From: Kitasatospora arboriphila
GTDB taxonomy: Bacteria > Actinomycetota > Actinomycetes > Mycobacteriales > Mycobacteriaceae
Reading direction: 5' to 3'
Length of the DNA: 64,000 nucleotides
NCBI RefSeq assembly: GCF_000717275.1
Contig: NZ_JNYV01000002.1
Span: forward strand, 1,116,001 to 1,180,000
Below, piece by piece: positions 4,718 to 12,241 of this stretch; the stretch's first letter is position 1, and every line of letters starts with the position of its first letter. The notes beneath the pieces are model-generated. The model worked only from the letters and a program-made list of their open reading frames with translations, had not been told where the DNA came from and searched no databases. The translations under genes and the position numbers were made by a program.

Positions 4718-4933
4718 CTACACCGCCGCGACGGTGCCGCAGATGCCACATTGCTCGAATTGGCGCCGCTTCCAGCGCGCGATCGGTATGAAGAACAACG
4801 TGAATTGTTGGTACTGCCTGATCCGTGCCCACTGTGTGGTGTTGTTGCAGTGAGGACATGTGCGGGTTTGCCCCGGGCCGAGGTGTTTCTGCTTGGTGCC
4901 GAAACCAAAGATGAAGAACACGAAGCCCAGCAT
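4718..4933 (-). CDS. Small zinc-ribbon protein
   Basis: This is a 71-residue protein from the ATG at 4933, preceded by AAGGAAG at a good distance. It starts with a short hydrophobic segment (MLGFVFFIFGFGTKQK), followed by a first Cys pair (TCPHCNNTT), an aromatic/basic spacer with LFFIPIARWKRR, and a second Cys pair (EQCGICGTV). The two CxxC pairs should bind one zinc ion. Proteins of this layout are common and uncharacterised in actinobacteria. The convergent MerR gene ends three bases away, and the alpha/beta hydrolase starts divergently 150 bases on the other side. Confidence 0.75.
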   Translation of the reverse strand: MLGFVFFIFGFGTKQKHLGPGQTRTCPHCNNTTQWARIRQYQQFTLFFIPIARWKRRQFEQCGICGTVAAV

Positions 4934-5083
4934 ATAGCTTCCTTCGAGGCCGGCCGGTTGTCTGCGGTGGTTGCACGTCGATCGGGCGCGGCTGACCCGA
5001 TGGCCGGCCGTCGCGCGGCCGATGACTTCTGTACTGTCCCGCGGTCTACCCCGCTGGGTACATCGACAGGCAGGAATGCAGAC

Positions 5084-5944
5084 ATGACAGGTGCAACGCG
5101 CGCGGGCATGACATCGGTGCAGGCCAACGGTGTGCAACTCGGCATCGAAAGATTCGGCCGTGAGGCAGACCCGCTGATCCTCCTGGCCGGCGGCACCACG
5201 ATGTTGTCGTGGCCGGACGCACTGTGTGAACGCCTCGCAACCGGTGGTCGGCACGTGGTGCGCTACGACCTGCGTGACTCAGGGACGTCGACCACCCTCA
5301 ACCCGGACAACGCTGCCTACAACCTCCGGGATCTGGCCGCAGACGCGGCCGCGTTGGCAGGGGCGCTCGGGAAACGCGCACATCTCGGCGGAATCGGTGT
5401 CGGTGGCATGGTTGCTCAAGTCGCCGCGCTCGACCATCCCGATGTGTTCTCAGCGTTGACCCTCGTCGGCACCCGACCGGTGGCGCCCGGTCCGGCAGAC
5501 GAGGATCTGCCCGAACACGACGCCGCGGTCATGGCCGAATTGTTCTCTCGCCCGATGCCGGATTGGAGCGACAGGGAGGCCGTCGGGACGTTCGCTGCCA
5601 AGGGTGCCGAGTCATTGCGCAACGACCCGGCCGAGGCGCGGTCCACGGCGATGCGGATCTGGGATCGGACGCCATCGACCGAACCGCCGGTGCATCAGGC
5701 GAACCAGCTCGCGATGGTGTTCTCCCGCATCGACTGTGCCCCACGATGGCGGGAGCGTCTCGGTGGACTCGACCTGCCCACCCTCGTGGTGCACGGTCGC
5801 GAGGACCCGTTCTTCCCCGTCGGTAACGGCGAGGTCCTCGCTGCCGAAATCCCTGGCGCCCGCCTGCTGGTGCTCGACGACATGGGTACCGCATTGCCAC
5901 ATGCGGCCACCGACCGAGTCGCTTCCGCCATGCTTGCGGTCTGA
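5084..5944 (+). CDS. Alpha/beta hydrolase
   Basis: This is a 286-residue alpha/beta hydrolase from the ATG at 5084 (AGGAA upstream); the open frame further upstream is non-coding. Motifs in order: LILLAGGTTMLSW at the oxyanion region, YDLRDSGTS typical of aclacinomycin methylesterase-like and lactonase-like hydrolases, and a changed nucleophile elbow, GIGVGGMVAQ. There the usual Ser of G-x-S-x-G is Val or Gly, so the catalytic serine appears absent. The acidic residue (GREDPFFP) and the His region (ALPHAA) are present. The missing serine suggests a non-hydrolytic role or an unusual nucleophile. It may be a target of the MerR regulator upstream, but spacing and the intervening minus-strand gene leave that open. 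Confidence 0.8.
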   Translation: MTGATRAGMTSVQANGVQLGIERFGREADPLILLAGGTTMLSWPDALCERLATGGRHVVRYDLRDSGTSTTLNPDNAAYNLRDLAADAAALAGALGKRAHLGGIGVGGMVAQVAALDHPDVFSALTLVGTRPVAPGPADEDLPEHDAAVMAELFSRPMPDWSDREAVGTFAAKGAESLRNDPAEARSTAMRIWDRTPSTEPPVHQANQLAMVFSRIDCAPRWRERLGGLDLPTLVVHGREDPFFPVGNGEVLAAEIPGARLLVLDDMGTALPHAATDRVASAMLAV

Positions 5945-5979: not shown

Positions 5980-7704
5980 TCAGAGATGTTGCGCACTGGC
6001 GGTTGCCGGTTCCGCTGCCCGGTACGCGAGCCATCCACCGAACCGGGTGATGTCCGTAGCGTCGGACAAAGCCGCACGCTCGCAACTGAATCCGATCATC
6101 GACCGTCCGCCGGTGAGCTGCACCGATCCCAGCATCATCGGCGCGGGCAATGTGGTGAGAAACGACGACAGTTCGGCCGGGGCCATCCGCCAGACGCCTC
6201 CGGTGATCGAACTGCCGCCGTCGATCGTGCGCACCAGTCCCGGTTTGGGTGGCGTGGTCGGCAGGGCATAGAGAGCATAGGCGGGGGCGGTGTGATCGGC
6301 GCCTACGAATCGCGCTCCCCGGCTTGTCATCTCGTGCTCGAGTGGCTGGCCTGGTAGGTGTGCGCCGACGACGAACACGTCCGACCACGATGCGCCGATG
6401 GATTCGATCCACGGCGCCCCTTGTGACAACGGCGGTGTTGCACCCGCAGCTGCAACCGGCTCTGGCGTCTCGACAACTCGGCGGGCCACGTCGAGGGCGA
6501 CCGCATCGTGGAAGGCGCCCGCCAGCACAGTGACCCCGAACTGGGCGGGCCCGGCGGTTCCCGCGGGGACGGCGACACCACACAGGTCGAACAGGTTCGC
6601 GAAGTTGGTGTAGGTGCCGAGCCACGAGTTCACGCCGATCGGGTCGTCGTCGACCGCTGCGATCGATGGATGTCCTGGAACGGTCGGAACCAGCAGTGCG
6701 TCGAAATCCGACAGCAACGCAACGCTTTCGACGCGCAGACGCTCGAGCCGCTCCAGGTCGCGCGCCATCTGAGACGCCGTCACTGTTCCCGCCGCCGAGA
6801 TCACGCGGCCGACGGTGGGGTCCACTGCATGGCGATGCGTGTCGACGAAGGCGCCGACAGCCGCGTGGCGTTCGGCGACAAGTCCACCCTCGTAGAGCAG
6901 GCGTGCTGCCTCGAGAAATGGTTCGAATGGAATTGCTTGTACAACAACACCGTCCGCGCGCAGTCGGTCCACGACTCGGTCAAAGGCCTCACTCCAGCCC
7001 GGGGACATCGCCGGTAACTCGCGCGGTATCGCAATGCGCGGGACGGGAGGTGCGGCCAGTGGTATGTCGTGTGGGAGAGCGCGTGTGCCCTCGCCTCCGG
7101 ACATGAACCCCATGGCGGCGTTGGCAGTCTCGAGGTCTCGGGCCATGATGGTCACCGCATCCCACGATCGGCATGCGGGCACCAGCCCTCGCGTGGAGAC
7201 CAGGCCCAGGGTGGGTTTGATCCCGACTATGCCTCCGAGCGCTGCCGGTACCCGGCCGGAACCGGCTGTGTCGGTACCGATCGCGATGTCTGCGAGTCCG
7301 AGCGCGACGGCCACCGCCGATCCTGAGCTCGAACCACCCGCGATGTGGTCTGGTCGTCGCGCGTCCCGGACACCTCCGTAGGGGCTTCTCTGCCCGACCA
7401 ATCCGGTGGCGAACTGGTCCATGTTCGTCGACCCCACGACGGTGGCCCCTGCGGCCCGTAGCCGTGCGACCGCGTCGGCGTCAACGCTCGCCGGCGCAGC
7501 GGCGTATGAGGGGCATCCGGCGGTGGTCGGCAGTCCCGCGACATCGACGTTGTTTTTGACTGCCAACAGCATTCCGGCGAGCGGGCCCGTCGCTGCCGCC
7601 GCGGCCTTGCGCAGGTCCTCTCGGGCGAGAAGGTCGATCCAGATCTCGGACCGATCGAGTGTGTCCACTGCCTCGAAGAACGCTTCCACTCGTTCGGTCA
7701 TCAT
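5980..7704 (-). CDS. atzF: Allophanate hydrolase (amidase domain plus C-terminal domain)
   Basis: This 574-residue protein would split allophanate into ammonia and CO2, the last step of biuret and cyanurate breakdown. The amidase-signature triad is visible: Lys50 in LLAVKNNVD, Ser125/126 in AGGSSSGSA, and Ser149 in GTDTAGSGRVPA. Residues from about 450 to the end (VFVVGAHLPGQPLEHE, then ARFVGADHTAPAYALY) match the separate C-terminal domain found in AtzF-type enzymes and in urea amidolyase. The C-terminal domain favours allophanate over generic amidases such as ureidomalonase. The ATG at 7704 overlaps the previous stop by four bases, making this the last gene of a coupled operon. The frame runs on upstream to 7995 but inside the preceding gene. 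Confidence 0.88.
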   Translation of the reverse strand: MMTERVEAFFEAVDTLDRSEIWIDLLAREDLRKAAAAATGPLAGMLLAVKNNVDVAGLPTTAGCPSYAAAPASVDADAVARLRAAGATVVGSTNMDQFATGLVGQRSPYGGVRDARRPDHIAGGSSSGSAVAVALGLADIAIGTDTAGSGRVPAALGGIVGIKPTLGLVSTRGLVPACRSWDAVTIMARDLETANAAMGFMSGGEGTRALPHDIPLAAPPVPRIAIPRELPAMSPGWSEAFDRVVDRLRADGVVVQAIPFEPFLEAARLLYEGGLVAERHAAVGAFVDTHRHAVDPTVGRVISAAGTVTASQMARDLERLERLRVESVALLSDFDALLVPTVPGHPSIAAVDDDPIGVNSWLGTYTNFANLFDLCGVAVPAGTAGPAQFGVTVLAGAFHDAVALDVARRVVETPEPVAAAGATPPLSQGAPWIESIGASWSDVFVVGAHLPGQPLEHEMTSRGARFVGADHTAPAYALYALPTTPPKPGLVRTIDGGSSITGGVWRMAPAELSSFLTTLPAPMMLGSVQLTGGRSMIGFSCERAALSDATDITRFGGWLAYRAAEPATASAQHL

Positions 7705-8360
7705 CGACTCCCAGCGGTGTGTACATGAACCATGGGCTCCAACTCCTCGATAAGGGGCGCAAAGGCGTTGTCCAGATGAGCGGCGTGAGAAGTGCCGGGC
7801 AGAACTCGCACTTTCAGGTCGAGGGCACCCGCCAGTGCGTTGACGGACTCGTGGCGCACACGCGGTGACATGGCTCCGACGGTGAGGGTGACCGAAGACG
7901 AATTGATCGTGAGGGGGCGCGGTTCGAATCGTCGGAACATGGCAAGTTCTCGGGCAACCGTTTCCGAGTTCGATGTGGTCATCGAAGGATCCCACCCGGG
8001 ACCGTAGAGCTCGTGGCCGAAACCCGGCACCCCGTGCTCGTCGAACGCGACGACGACGGGGTCCAGCAATCCTGGCATCAGTGACCCGGCCGCCGGTTCG
8101 TGCAGGACCGCCGCGGTCATCGTGACACCGCGGGTAGCCAACTCCAAGCCCAATGTCGCCCCGCCGCTGACGCCGAAGACCACCGCGCCGTCACACAACG
8201 GCGCCAGGAAATCGACCTCGGTCGCCAGGTCGCCGGAGCGGGGCCGCTGGGGGATTACGACGTGAAAGCCCCTCTCGGACAACACGGTAAATGTCTGCTC
8301 CCATACGGGCGGGTCTACGGCCACGCCACACAGCAAGACGGCTCGCGACCGCTTTGTCAT
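7701..8360 (-). CDS. Small alpha/beta hydrolase of the ring-nitrogen operon
   Basis: This 219-residue protein has a compact alpha/beta hydrolase pattern: [17 protein letters not shown] at the oxyanion strand, nucleophile elbow [10 protein letters not shown] with Ser, and a late His in [14 protein letters not shown]. The ATG at 8360 overlaps the stop of the BiuH-like gene by four bases, and its own stop overlaps the atzF start by four. It is therefore translated with the cyanurate/biuret enzymes. No such protein is part of the classic AtzD-BiuH-AtzF or AtzD-E-G-H-F sets I know. It could hydrolyse an intermediate (carboxybiuret, ureidomalonate) or an ester or amide precursor; this is a guess from context. 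Confidence 0.8.
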
Positions 8361-9064
8361 GAGGCGGCGAGCGATGCATTCGGGCCCAGCGCCGACAACA
8401 ACTGCTCCGAGGTGGCAGTCGCGCCGAACACCCCACCCTGCATCGCAATCATGCTCAGCGCCGCCACATGGTGGCCGTGGTCGGTGGCGCCGGTGCAATC
8501 CGACAGCACCAGGCACTCGAAGCCACGATCATTGGCCTCACGCATGGTGGTGTGGACACAGACATCAGTTGTGATCCCGGTGAGGATGAGGTTCCTGATA
8601 CCCGCACTGCGCAAGATCAGGTCCAGGTCGGTGGCGTAAAAGGCGCCCTTACCGGGTTTGTCGATGATCGGTTCTCCGGGTAGTGGTGCGACCTCCGGGA
8701 CGATCTCCCACCCGGGTTCGCCGCGCACGAGGATGCGTCCGCACGGTCCGACCGAACCGATCTCGGCGCCCGCGCGCTCCGAACGCCACCGCTTGTTCTG
8801 CGGGAGGTCGGTCAAGTCGGGGCGGTGCCCTTCGCGGGTGTGGATCACCAGCATTCCTGCGTCGCGACACGCGGCGAGTACGTGGGCGGTCGGCGCGAGG
8901 CCGGCACGGGTCAGCGAGAGGTCGTAGCCCATCGAGTCGACGTATCCGCCTGGCCCGCAGAAGTCGACCTGCCAGTCGATGAGTACCAGCGCGGTGCGCC
9001 CGACATCGAGAACACCGTCGTAAGGCCAGGCGTAGGGATGAGCATCAACGGGGTGCTTGGTCAT
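8357..9064 (-). CDS. biuH: Isochorismatase-family cysteine hydrolase, probable biuret amidohydrolase
   Basis: This 235-residue cysteine hydrolase carries the family triad: Asp in [11 protein letters not shown], Lys in [14 protein letters not shown], and Cys in [12 protein letters not shown]. Its N-terminal sequence ([15 protein letters not shown]) and overall length resemble BiuH and related ureidoacrylate (RutB-like) enzymes. Placed between an AtzD/barbiturase-family ring hydrolase and allophanate hydrolase, conversion of biuret to allophanate is the most economical role. Ureidoacrylate or another ureido-acid is possible if the upstream enzyme is a barbiturase. Start and stop overlap the neighbours by four bases on each side. 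Confidence 0.82.
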
Positions 9065-10143
9065 CGAGGTGTGCCTTCCGAAGTGTTGCTGTGCGGGGTG
9101 ATCTGGGGTGGATCGACTTCGTAGACGACGGTCACGCTTCCGCCCCCGGGTCGTCCCTGATGTTCGGCGCCGCCCGAGACGTACACCGAGCCGTCGCCTT
9201 TGATGGCCGCAACAAGCGCGCCGACGGCAGCTCGTGCGTGGCGCGTCGCGTTGATGTCAGAATCGGTGAGCATCGTGTGCCGCAGCTTGCGAATGGTTCC
9301 GGAGGGATCGGCTTCGGCCTTGACGAACAGCTGTCGAATACGGCCGCCACGCTCGGATACCAGAGCGGCAGCGGAGAGAAGCGAATCGAGGTCGTAGGCG
9401 TCCTTCATCTCGGTGTGCAAGGCCCGCAACGAGTTCGCGGCCTTGTCGCTCTCGCCGACCACCAGCACATGGCACGATTTCAGTTCGGCTCCGGCACTTG
9501 CTGACGCCCGATTCGACCAGGCGTGGCGCCGTCCCTCGAGCGCAGCCAGCGCGGTGTCGATGTCGATCTCGTCGAGCGCCAGGGCGATTCCCAGCGAACT
9601 CGCTGCGCGCGAACGCGCCATCGACTCATAGGTGTCGTCGCTGACCGGCTCGATGCCGACCGCACGCAGTCCCGCGATGTCGGTCGAGGTGAGCAGCGGA
9701 CACTTGACCAGGACAAGGTGCACATCGTCGCCTGCGATGCCTAGTTCGGCGACCAGCTTGGCCACTGTGTCGCGGACCGACTCCATGTGCGCGACGCGCC
9801 CCAGCTCTGCCGGGGGGATTGCGGGGGTGGTTCCTGCGGCGGCGACGAGACCGCGCTGATGACGGGGATCTACACGATCGTCGGCGACCAGCAAGTTCAC
9901 ATGCGGTGCGATGACGCCTTCGGTGCCTCCCGAGAACACGGTCACCGCAGCCTCTTTGAGGTGGGGTTCCCATACCGCAGAGGCAAGCGTGCGGCTGAAG
10001 TCGTTGACGCAACCGTTGCCTTCGGTCTTGCCGACCACGGCGAGCACATCATCGGTGCCGAATCCGTTGTCTGCCAACAGCTCGAGGGCGCTGATGTCGT
10101 CGGGCCCCGTGGTGGGCGCGGTGAGCAGGCGGACTCCGGTCAT
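9061..10143 (-). CDS. atzD: Cyanuric acid amidohydrolase / barbiturase family ring-opening enzyme
   Basis: This 360-residue protein has the threefold repeated architecture of the AtzD/TrzD/barbiturase family (reference enzymes about 360-370 residues). Visible signatures are [16 protein letters not shown], the Ser-Gly-Gly motif [21 protein letters not shown], and the final [16 protein letters not shown] loop. The family opens either cyanuric acid (to carboxybiuret, then biuret) or barbituric acid (to ureidomalonate), and I cannot separate the two activities by eye. The BiuH-like and allophanate hydrolase genes downstream favour cyanurate. The NCS2 permease upstream would fit either substrate. 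Overlaps of four bases with both neighbours show tight coupling. Confidence 0.85.
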
Positions 10144-11492
10144 GCCACGACCTCCTTGCTCGACGCCGGTTCAGCGGTTGGGGTGTCGTCGCCACGTCGT
10201 CGGGGCGGTAGGTGATGGAAGACGATATTGAGGACAAATGCGGTGATCACAGCACTGCTGATGGCGTTGCCGAAGATGATCTGCACCTCGGCGGGGAAGT
10301 CGGTGTAGATGTCCTTGGAGACCACCGGGATCATCCCTGCGCCCAACGCCAGCGAGACGATCATCAGGTTGTCGTTGTCGCGGTAGTCCACCTTCGACAG
10401 GGTGCTGATGCCGGTGCCCGCGACGAGTGCGAACATCACCAGACTGACCGATCCGATGACTGCCCCCGGCAGGCTCGCGATCGTCTCGCCGAGCTTGGGG
10501 ATCAACGCGAAGATGATCAGGAGCGCGCCTGCGAACACCACGACAGCACGGCTCGCGATCTTGGTGATCCGGACGAGGCTGACGTTCTGCGCAAAGATGG
10601 TGTCGGGGAACGAGGTCCATACTCCCGCGAGTACTGCGGACGCACCGTCGGCGGCCAGACCTCGGGCGATGCGCGGAGGATCCGCGTCGATGCCGGTGGT
10701 CTCGGAGATCGCCATCATGTAGGCGGTCGACTCGATGAAGATCACGATCATCACGATGCTCATGGAGATGATCCCGGCGATGGGGAATGTCGGTGCGCCA
10801 AAGAAGAAGGGCTGCGGGATCCCGAACCACGCTGCGTCACCCACACCGGAGAAGTCCGTCATCGACATCGCAGCAGCCGCGATGGTTCCGAGGACCAGAG
10901 CGGTGAGAACGGCTGCCTGCCTGATGAATCCACGGCCGTAGCGCATCAGGGCGACCACGACGATGATGATGCCCAAAGCCAACGACAGTCGTTCGCCATC
11001 GGCCGGGCCGTCGTCGAAGATCATCGACACTGCTTTACCGATGAGCGACAACCCGATCATCGTCACTGCTGCACCGCGCACGACCGGAGGAAAAAACCGC
11101 AGCAGCTTGGAGAACGGCACCGCGATGAGGAGAGCGAAGATCCCGGCACCGATCATCGACCCGTACACCGCATTCAGGCCGTATTCCTGCCCGATGAGGA
11201 TCATCGGGGTGACGGCTGTGAACGAGGCGCCTGCCACGACCGGCATCCGCGCACCCAGGATGTTGCCGATGCCGGCGGCTTGGATGATGGTGACGATGCC
11301 GGCGATCAGCAGGTCGGCGTTGACCAACAGCCCGATGGTGCGTTGGTCCAGTCCAAGTGCCGCACCGAAGACGAGGGGAACGGTGACGCAGCCCGTGTAC
11401 ATGACGATCACATGCTGAGCGCCGAAGGCTCCCGTGCGCCACAAGCCGGAGATGCTTGGCGTTCGCGACGGGGTAGGTAGGAAGTTTCGCAT
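10140..11492 (-). CDS. NCS2-family nucleobase (uracil/xanthine-type) permease
   Basis: This is a membrane protein of about 450 residues with 12-14 hydrophobic segments. Family signs include QHVIVMYTGCVTVPL in the first helix, VVAGASFTAVTP in helix 3, and the substrate-site stretch FIESTAYMMAISE followed by GLAADGASAVLAG. It should import the ring substrate (cyanurate, uracil or barbiturate-like). The frame starts at 11537, but the ATG at 11492 (MRNFLPTPS) is preferred because a regulator box (11499-11510) sits directly before it and no ribosome site precedes either codon. TATACG ends 7 bases before that ATG, so a leaderless transcript is possible. The stop overlaps the ring hydrolase start. 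Confidence 0.88.
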   Translation of the reverse strand: MRNFLPTPSRTPSISGLWRTGAFGAQHVIVMYTGCVTVPLVFGAALGLDQRTIGLLVNADLLIAGIVTIIQAAGIGNILGARMPVVAGASFTAVTPMILIGQEYGLNAVYGSMIGAGIFALLIAVPFSKLLRFFPPVVRGAAVTMIGLSLIGKAVSMIFDDGPADGERLSLALGIIIVVVALMRYGRGFIRQAAVLTALVLGTIAAAAMSMTDFSGVGDAAWFGIPQPFFFGAPTFPIAGIISMSIVMIVIFIESTAYMMAISETTGIDADPPRIARGLAADGASAVLAGVWTSFPDTIFAQNVSLVRITKIASRAVVVFAGALLIIFALIPKLGETIASLPGAVIGSVSLVMFALVAGTGISTLSKVDYRDNDNLMIVSLALGAGMIPVVSKDIYTDFPAEVQIIFGNAISSAVITAFVLNIVFHHLPPRRRGDDTPTAEPASSKEVVA

Positions 11493-11498
11493 GGACAA

Positions 11499-11510
11499 TT
11501 CGTATACGTT
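11499..11510. promoter_or_regulatory. GntR-type operator candidate, promoter-proximal box
   Basis: TTCGTATACGTT is a near-perfect copy (one mismatch in the dyad) of the box at 11562-11573. It lies 6 bases upstream of the preferred permease ATG and includes the TATACG that could serve as -10. A bound regulator here would block transcription of the operon. Confidence 0.65.
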
Positions 11511-11561
11511 CTTTGTGTCGAGACCGTTATCAACCATTACATTCGAGTTAACGACCGGAAG

Positions 11562-11573
11562 TTCGTATACGAA
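11562..11573. promoter_or_regulatory. GntR-type operator candidate, distal box
   Basis: TTCGTATACGAA is a perfect 12-base palindrome located two bases beyond the stop codon of the GntR gene. It is of the TNGTATACNA type that FCD-family GntR regulators favour. Its centre is 63 bases (about six helical turns) from the second box, which would allow two dimers to bind on the same face. No third copy was seen upstream of the GntR gene. Confidence 0.7.
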
Positions 11574-11575
11574 AG

Positions 11576-12241
11576 CTACTTGATGAGTCGCCGAACCAGA
11601 TCTTCGTCCTTCTTCACGTGCTCATCCATCAGATAGCCCGCCTGAAAGGGGGAGCCGTCGAGAACGGCACCGGCAATCGCCGTGTGGTCACGCCAGCATC
11701 CGTCGGCCCTGCTCTCCACGTCGCGGTCGAAGACCCACGCGATGCGCCGCAGCGTGTGTTCGAGGGTGCGGGCCAGTTCGTGGTTCCCGGAAGCCTCGGC
11801 CATCAGCGTGTGGAAGCGAAGCACCAGGGGAGGGACCTGATCATGATGCTTCAAACGCTCGGCCTGTGTTCCCGACTCGGTGACGAGACGCAGTTCGGCG
11901 GCGAACTCACCACCGCTGCGCTCGGCAGCCAGTCGGGCACCGAACACCTCCAGACCTCGACGGACCTGCATCAACTCGATCGCGTCGGCCCGTGACGCGC
12001 CTGACACGGTCGCGCCCTTGTAGCGCTCGAGGTTGACGAATCCCTCGCTCTGCAACTGCGACAGCGCCTCTCGGACCGGTACCCGCGACACCCCGAATCG
12101 TTCGGCGAGCATGGGTTCCGGGAGACGGTCGCCCGGTTGCAGCTGTCCATCGAGAACGTCGTCGCGGATCGCTGCAGCAATCGCTTCCCTGGTCGCCGGC
12201 TCTCTTGTCATCGCAGCGGCGACATCCGAGTCGGTGTGCAT
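11576..12241 (-). CDS. GntR-family regulator (FadR/FCD subfamily) of the ring-nitrogen operon
   Basis: The 221-residue protein has an N-terminal GntR winged helix (LQPGDRLPEPMLAERFGVSRVPVREAL, residues about 35-60) and a helical FCD ligand-binding domain. The FCD metal-site residues can be seen in MQVRRGLEVFGARLA, RFHTLMAEASGN, RDHTAIAGAV and MDEHVKKD. It precedes the permease on the same strand, and two TTCGTATACG boxes fill the space between them. The obvious model is a repressor released by a pathway intermediate. Confidence 0.88.
   Translation of the reverse strand: MHTDSDVAAAMTREPATREAIAAAIRDDVLDGQLQPGDRLPEPMLAERFGVSRVPVREALSQLQSEGFVNLERYKGATVSGASRADAIELMQVRRGLEVFGARLAAERSGGEFAAELRLVTESGTQAERLKHHDQVPPLVLRFHTLMAEASGNHELARTLEHTLRRIAWVFDRDVESRADGCWRDHTAIAGAVLDGSPFQAGYLMDEHVKKDEDLVRRLIK

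Follow-up and report, generated by a model that had tools for sequence, protein, structure and literature searches.

In the biuret route of cyanurate degradation in Rhizobium 3841 and Herbaspirillum, the pathway comprises AtzD, TrtB, BiuH, and AtzF, with TrtA for triuret. Left to itself, carboxybiuret loses CO2 at a half-life of about 20 min; other bacteria are known to have a carboxybiuret decarboxylase, TrtB, whose reaction is a step of the biuret route (PMC7948467; this and the other papers are cited from excerpts). The AtzDGEHF operon of Pseudomonas sp. ADP also holds a small extra protein for an unstable N-carboxy intermediate, AtzH, which belongs to the NTF2 superfamily and was proposed to decarboxylate 1,3-dicarboxyurea, an N-carboxy-urea (PMC6219798), and in Rhodococcus sp. 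Mel the biuret hydrolase BiuH is colocated with AtzD (PMC7948467). Here, we analyze a stretch of 64,000 nucleotides from Kitasatospora arboriphila (contig NZ_JNYV01000002.1, positions 1,116,001 to 1,180,000; hereafter, the window), in which six minus-strand genes almost certainly form a cyanurate operon of the known kind, following the cyanurate-biuret-allophanate route, with a small alpha/beta hydrolase, here called ABH, encoded between BiuH and AtzF. We propose, with a probability of about 0.55, that ABH converts carboxybiuret to biuret and CO2, a role like that of TrtB and the AtzH-like proteins carried out on another fold. The genes of the operon are as follows (lengths in amino acids [aa]).

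11576..12241, minus strand, GntR/FCD-family regulator gene, 221 aa (PF00392, 66.9 bits; PF07729, 62.2 bits)
10140..11537, minus strand, NCS2 nucleobase-type permease, 465 aa (TIGR03173, 415.1 bits, cut-off 414.15, pbuX-type; PF00860, 290 bits)
9061..10143, minus strand, AtzD-type cyanuric acid hydrolase, 360 aa (PF09663, 370 bits, cut-off 25; TIGR02714, 277.8 bits, cut-off 153.1)
8357..9064, minus strand, BiuH biuret hydrolase, 235 aa (NF050097, the NCBIfam BiuH equivalog, 420 bits, cut-off 370)
7701..8360, minus strand, ABH, alpha/beta hydrolase, 219 aa (PF12697, 29.3 bits, cut-off 26.3)
5980..7704, minus strand, AtzF-type allophanate hydrolase, 574 aa, amidase plus C-terminal domain (TIGR02713, 606 bits, cut-off 511; PF01425, 251 bits; PF21986, 148 bits)

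The initial annotation had described this gene set as standing under a GntR gene and joined by four ATGA overlaps, and so we found it: the order is head to tail GntR, NCS2 permease, AtzD, BiuH, ABH, and AtzF, with ATGA on the coding strand at the permease/AtzD, AtzD/BiuH, BiuH/ABH, and ABH/AtzF junctions. With the Rhizobium 3841 and Herbaspirillum pathway the window shares homologues of AtzD, BiuH, and AtzF and a slot for the carboxybiuret step. With the Pseudomonas sp. ADP operon it shares AtzD, AtzF, and a small extra protein; it differs in that AtzE and AtzG are not among the six operon genes (family scans covered the operon proteins and not the rest of the genome), that BiuH is a cysteine hydrolase, and that the fold of ABH is not that of AtzH (PMC6219798). 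The BiuH of the Rhodococcus sp. Mel locus, 6xjm, is the closest PDB entry to the window BiuH (428 bits). The view that the small hydrolase has no place in the known cyanurate routes was too strong, since the biuret route includes the carboxybiuret decarboxylase step (TrtB; PMC7948467), and it is there that ABH fits best.

Five proteobacterial plasmid clusters that each encode two isochorismatases, namely, BiuH and a TrtA-like protein, have a BMP-type ATP-binding cassette (ABC) transporter together with genes for a formamidase, a cupin, or an AtzH-like protein, the last annotated as HpxZ. Their annotations include no alpha/beta hydrolase within the cluster (in one case there is one about 30 kb off); the window has the NCS2 permease and ABH instead. 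Two HpxZ-type proteins that we scanned match PF11533 "AtzH-like" with 145 and 171 bits, and in an excerpted paper on a nitrifier trtB is located next to trtA, biuH, atzF, and an ABC transporter of this kind (PMC12625717). The AtzH-like gene appears to be the best TrtB candidate in the loci compared, a formamidase being also possible. TrtB shares with ABH the proposed conversion of carboxybiuret to biuret and CO2 and the AtzD/TrtA neighborhood, while its best candidate, unlike ABH, would not be an alpha/beta hydrolase. In a sixth proteobacterial locus, BiuH is found with a cytosine permease and an amidase. Within the open-licence PMC literature, we found no paper that connects an alpha/beta hydrolase with the degradation of either biuret or cyanurate. 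The paper defining TrtB is reportedly that of Aukema, 2020.

In the proposed pathway, the operon would take up cyanuric acid, the permease being the probable route of ring uptake, and turn it into ammonia and CO2. AtzD would open the ring to 1-carboxybiuret; ABH would bridge AtzD and BiuH by speeding the loss of the N-carboxylate from carboxybiuret, which would yield biuret and CO2 or bicarbonate; BiuH would deaminate biuret to allophanate; and AtzF would split allophanate. Control of the gene set would fall to GntR, by way of paired GTATAC palindromes. Catalysis by ABH would likely involve Ser65-Glu88-His192, and Arg39 and Arg169 could hold the carboxylate and the carbonyls. We infer this substrate, this reaction, and these residue roles; on this reading, ABH, though unrelated in fold, would serve in actinobacteria the function of TrtB and of the AtzH-like proteins. 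The proposal would give a testable function to a family that bears no specific name in Pfam or NCBIfam and would close the sole step of this actinobacterial route to which no enzyme is assigned. If it is true, two unrelated folds have been recruited for the same unstable intermediate, the partner pattern described below gives a clean prediction, and there is an extra enzyme for removing cyanuric acid or biuret.

Substrate ring of the operon

Of the coupled s-triazine/pyrimidine-ring role assigned by the initial annotation, the s-triazine (cyanurate) part is supported and the pyrimidine part is not. The alignment that it had called for, of the product of 9061..10143 with attention to the active-site signature, gave the residues of a cyanuric acid hydrolase: the Ser-Lys dyads K39/S71, K147/S216, and K275/S323 and the substrate arginines Arg51, Arg179, and Arg304 are all present, and 14 of the 15 positions inspected are identical to those mapped from 4nq3, the Azorhizobium cyanuric acid hydrolase. 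Barbiturases have Gln where cyanuric acid hydrolases have Arg (position 188 of 4nq3, according to the excerpts of PMC4051656), and the residue of the window AtzD at this position is Arg179. The window BiuH keeps Asp30, Lys136, Lys139, Cys169, and Gln209, whose equivalents have been shown in Rhizobium BiuH (PMC5806882), and scores 420 bits against the BiuH model versus 108.5 against RutB. AtzF passes the TIGR02713 cut-off and has the C-terminal AH_C domain (PF21986). Because of the residues and scores of AtzD and BiuH, we read the route as leading from cyanurate through carboxybiuret, biuret, and allophanate to ammonia.

An operon for barbiturate or pyrimidine breakdown, in which the AtzD-like protein would be a barbiturase and the BiuH-like protein a ureidoacrylate or ureidomalonate hydrolase, would suit the nucleobase type of the permease and the score of AtzD against the NCBIfam cyanuric acid hydrolase equivalog NF052395, which at 358.6 bits is 1.4 under the cut-off of 360. 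It is practically ruled out by the active-site residues and scores of AtzD and BiuH: Arg179 stands where barbiturases carry Gln (PMC4051656, excerpts), cyanuric acid hydrolases outscore the barbiturase among the PDB matches of AtzD (209 to 243 versus 171 bits), the BiuH equivalog is over its cut-off with RutB far below, and AtzF is complete, including its C-terminal domain.

Another class of AtzD-family proteins is common in other families of the order. In 11 of 11 members sampled (L005, L007, L008, L016, L020, L024, L034, L174, L175, L177, and L178), Lys and Asn (Ser in L178) replace two of the three substrate arginines, and this divergent class may open a different ring. The loci L005 to L034 of this class, of about 4 kb, contain no BiuH or ABH. 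By eye, a nucleotidyltransferase-like frame, perhaps of the Mo-cofactor kind, lies near the L034 copy.

ABH and its distribution among actinobacteria

ABH has the fold of the alpha/beta hydrolase superfamily (predicted model, mean predicted local distance difference test [pLDDT] 94.5), the GxSxG elbow, a His after the last strand, and an acid, the putative triad being Ser65-Glu88-His192. In an alignment of 81 ABH sequences, S65, E88, H192, R39, and R169 are invariant in all of the 79 to 81 rows that have the residue. At an E value of ≤0.001, PF12697 is its only match, with none to PF11533 (AtzH-like); no NCBIfam family matches it, nor does any PDB sequence at ≤1. A protein named Williamsia sp. 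D3 shares 95% identity with it, which places the genome close to Williamsia. ABH has 538 database relatives at ≤1e-5, and at that same threshold no match was found among 72,556 plasmid records. Its fold matches, with tied Z, include RutD, E-2-(acetamidomethylene)succinate hydrolase, and N-formylmaleamate deformylase, which we take to serve N-heterocycle breakdown; esterases and lactonases are also among the fold neighbors. RutD and the other alpha/beta hydrolases of N-heterocycles (3v48, 3kxp, and 4l0c) are only 17 to 18% identical to ABH and have other operon partners, and, compared with the RutD type, ABH has an invariant Ser165 after strand 7, its putative acid being Glu88 after strand 6. 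That ABH is a chance neighbor or a frame artefact is ruled out by its recurrence across loci and its conservation.

When one genome per species was scanned with two conserved ABH peptides, at least 80 actinobacterial loci were obtained, none of them chosen for BiuH. The hydrolase had been called an extra member beside the pathway, which is borne out by its recurrence: BiuH is present in the locus or the genome for 77 of the 80 loci listed (30 loci with AtzD, 41 of 44 genomes searched whole [20 of 20 and 21 of 24], and 6 loci by tblastn). These 77 fall into partner classes with AtzD (30), TrtA (19), or a degenerate BiuH paralogue (28). The TrtA class consists of 15 Frankiaceae, with a TrtA-class match of 275 to 284 bits elsewhere in the genome, plus L082, L093, L094, and L108, and the paralogue class of 23 loci assigned by alignment and 5 by an adjacent weak BiuH-family match. 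In a single quick tree of ABH, comprising 78 rows after 3 partial ones were left out, the partner changes 6 times by parsimony, against a shuffled mean of 35.3; the well-supported branches alone force fewer changes, namely, 2 for AtzD, 3 for the paralogue, and 2 for TrtA. From the presence of BiuH at 77 of the 80 listed loci and from these partner changes, it appears that ABH stays with BiuH while the upstream gene is swapped.

The gene order itself, which was to be sought in other genomes, recurs as GntR-permease-AtzD-BiuH-ABH in Williamsia, Gordonia, and Microbacterium, with AtzF next in every such locus except L040, and in the Williamsia and Gordonia loci L035 to L040 the GntR match is 83 to 99% identical and in the same place. 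The order is also kept in Nocardia and Prauserella, where a CodB-type permease is inserted between AtzD and BiuH in L041, L044, and L167, not in L168.

The degenerate paralogue lies beside BiuH at L068 (2561-3148, minus strand) and at 22 further loci (L050, L063, L064, L066, L067, L072, L073, L076, L079, L081, L083, L087, L088, L089, L092, L099, L101, L104, L111, L113, L114, and L187). Lys142 and Lys145 are lost, and Gln215 is replaced by Ser, in 23 of 23, while Asp36 is kept in 2 and Cys175 in 10. Such residues suggest that it is probably a pseudoenzyme subunit that alters BiuH specificity, and since both active-site lysines are lost and an invariant Ser occupies Gln215, a position lent to the active site of the neighboring subunit, the paralogue may make BiuH a triuret-accepting hetero-oligomer. 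A BMP-type ABC transporter occurs in the annotated loci of this class. More tentatively, and with less than even confidence, ABH might found an alpha/beta-hydrolase family that decarboxylates carboxybiuret, as a non-orthologous replacement of AtzH-like/TrtB proteins across Actinobacteria, and in about one-third of the listed loci have as its neighbor a BiuH paralogue devoid of catalysis, with which BiuH may form a hetero-oligomer that accepts triuret and produces the carboxybiuret.

Among 397 genomes of the window's order, an AtzD-family protein was found in at least 104, BiuH over the cut-off in at least 32, and ABH in at least 6. All 6 ABH genomes lie within the 32 BiuH genomes (chance 1.7e-7 if the genomes were independent, which they are not); the partner is an AtzD of the window's class in 4 of them and the degenerate paralogue in the other 2. 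At the locus, no AtzH-like gene is present in any of these 6, and the weak AtzH-like matches away from it are fragments of 52 and 46 bits on another contig in G129 and one of 22 bits in G029. By comparison, a TrtA-class gene stands beside BiuH in 21 of the 32, all 21 with an AtzH-like match, 51 to 1855 bp from TrtA in every case (84 to 145 bits with the HpxZ model, whose cut-off of 135 is exceeded in 7 of the 21), and none with ABH; TrtA together with ABH was met only outside this sample, in the 19 genomes of the ABH loci listed. In five BiuH genomes without a linked producer, neither ABH nor an AtzH-like gene was found, and four of them have a CodB-type gene beside BiuH; a need for ABH by BiuH alone is disfavored by these five. 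Eleven BiuH loci without ABH gave none by tblastn over 16 to 19 kb either. The two surveys overlap in part, e.g., G080 with L063 and G129 with L081.

A further 17 genomes of the order have a TrtA-class match (262 to 283 bits; G373, with a split match, is left out), no BiuH over the cut-off, and no ABH, and no AtzH-like match above 63 bits was found in the 16 of them examined (G020 is left out). Since no ABH was found in these TrtA-only genomes, and no strong AtzH-like gene in the 16 examined, the bridging step appears to occur where BiuH is accompanied by a carboxybiuret source. Among the nine genomes of the window's genus, three have the full set of AtzD, BiuH over the cut-off, and ABH, and six have no member of the set. 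The latter six (G001, G002, and G004 to G007) have a TrtA-class match, and the three with the cyanurate operon have none at an E value of ≤1e-40, so that TrtA and the cyanurate operon look mutually exclusive in these nine genomes. Taken as a whole, the distribution supports the earlier guess that the extra hydrolase may act on an unstable intermediate.

L180, L181, L183, and L184 combine TrtA with an AtzF-like amidase and a permease-like gene, with no BiuH or AtzH-like gene nearby. For the 1.7-kb gene that separates TrtA from the AtzH-like gene, an identity as AtzE was considered and rejected; by eye, its open reading frame (ORF) in two loci resembles a membrane permease, and Pfam gave no match for the one scanned.

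Alternative roles for ABH and points against decarboxylation

Several observations weigh against ABH as a carboxybiuret decarboxylase. The distributions of ABH and AtzH-like genes are near-complementary without being strictly exclusive: among 42 ABH genomes, one (G422) carries an AtzH-like match over the cut-off, on another contig than BiuH, and 16 have unlinked AtzH-like matches of 50 to 80 bits, all inside frames of 540 to 920 aa, with 4 others weaker. Because ABH pairs with AtzD or the paralogue and AtzH-like genes pair with TrtA in the order sample, the upstream enzyme and the bridging gene are confounded there, and the pattern could follow the upstream enzyme; the ABH side of this sample, moreover, consists of 4 genera, whose genomes are not independent, and 3 of the 21 TrtA-BiuH genomes (G034, G053, and G255) also hold an unlinked AtzD-family protein, of the other class by score. 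In the order searches for AtzD, BiuH, and ABH, no more than 4, 7, and 7 first-look candidates, respectively, were scored in each genome, which makes the counts lower bounds and leaves absences unproven. G042 and G191 have BiuH and an unlinked TrtA without ABH or a strong AtzH-like gene (a 22-bit HpxZ match in G191), and because of this pattern carboxybiuret decarboxylation may sometimes be left to itself.

In the ABH survey, 3 of the 80 listed loci (two metagenome-assembled genomes and one draft Cellulomonas) have no BiuH over the cut-off in the genome. Most of the TrtA assignments are by score class alone, identity to the TrtA reference having been checked for two Frankiaceae and L082 and the other 13 Frankiaceae being placed by score only, and in 28 of the 80 the presumed carboxybiuret source is the degenerate BiuH paralogue, whose own catalysis is doubtful. 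The fold match of the predicted ABH model is generic. To our knowledge, there is no close precedent for an alpha/beta hydrolase that decarboxylates a carbamate.

The generic fold, with its intact nucleophile elbow and His and its esterase and lactonase neighbors, would also suit a serine esterase or amidase that widens the substrate range by acting on esterified or N-substituted precursors, e.g., alkyl allophanates, to release biuret, allophanate, or the ring, and a nucleobase-type permease could carry varied rings. We consider this role unlikely, though worth weighing, as it leaves unexplained both the near-complementary pattern with AtzH-like genes and the lack of ABH in TrtA-only genomes and in those BiuH genomes that have no linked producer; the exchange of AtzD, TrtA, and the paralogue while ABH stays argues for a step common to all. 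ABH might also be a sensor or a noncatalytic partner, in the manner of RsbQ and D14/KAI2, alpha/beta hydrolases that act in signaling, which we regard as very improbable. An action later in the pathway, on 1,3-dicarboxyurea, allophanate, or dicarboxyammonia (the AtzF product), seems improbable to us. It would agree with the position of the ABH gene between those of BiuH and AtzF in the window and with the activity proposed for AtzH, the prototype of PF11533, on 1,3-dicarboxyurea (PMC6219798, excerpts). That compound, on the other hand, arises with AtzEG, absent from the six operon genes (the rest of the genome was not searched), and a role after AtzF would be expected wherever BiuH and AtzF act, yet the linked TrtA-BiuH loci are without ABH and have AtzF-like matches in 4 of the 6 examined. 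Decarboxylation of carboxybiuret by ABH is the reading that we prefer.

Predicted operators and a flanking frame

Two palindromes near the GntR gene, one on each side of the annotated permease start, are predicted to be its operators.

11562..11573, no strand assigned, predicted GntR operator 1, TTCGTATACGAA palindrome, with GTATAC at 11565, in the gap after the GntR stop codon
11499..11510, no strand assigned, predicted GntR operator 2, TTCGTATACGTT, with GTATAC at 11502, 63 bp from operator 1 and within the annotated first permease codons

Because operator 2 lies inside the permease ORF and an ATG follows it at 11492, the annotated permease start at 11537 is probably too early, the true start being perhaps this ATG. 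GTATAC occurs 3 times in the window. The paired palindromes are spaced 63 bp in Williamsia and Gordonia and 74 to 84 bp in the Nocardia, Prauserella, Pseudonocardia, and Microbacterium loci inspected. Of 45 loci in the TrtA and paralogue classes, 26 have GTATAC in the 320 bp upstream of ABH, where 0.0051 per locus, or about 0.2 in all, would be expected from the background of 10 occurrences in 628,629 other bases of the same 45 loci. Part of this background is coding DNA, so that relative to intergenic DNA alone the excess is less than the raw ratio; related loci are, moreover, not independent. Twenty-three other palindromes of the same A/T content were found in 0 to 11 of the 45 loci. L082 has the regulator and ABH together with two GTATAC-type sites. 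We infer from these sites that GntR would act through the paired GTATAC palindromes.

Just downstream of the operon and outside it, on the opposite strand, a second alpha/beta-hydrolase-like ORF was noticed by eye (4751-5944, plus strand).

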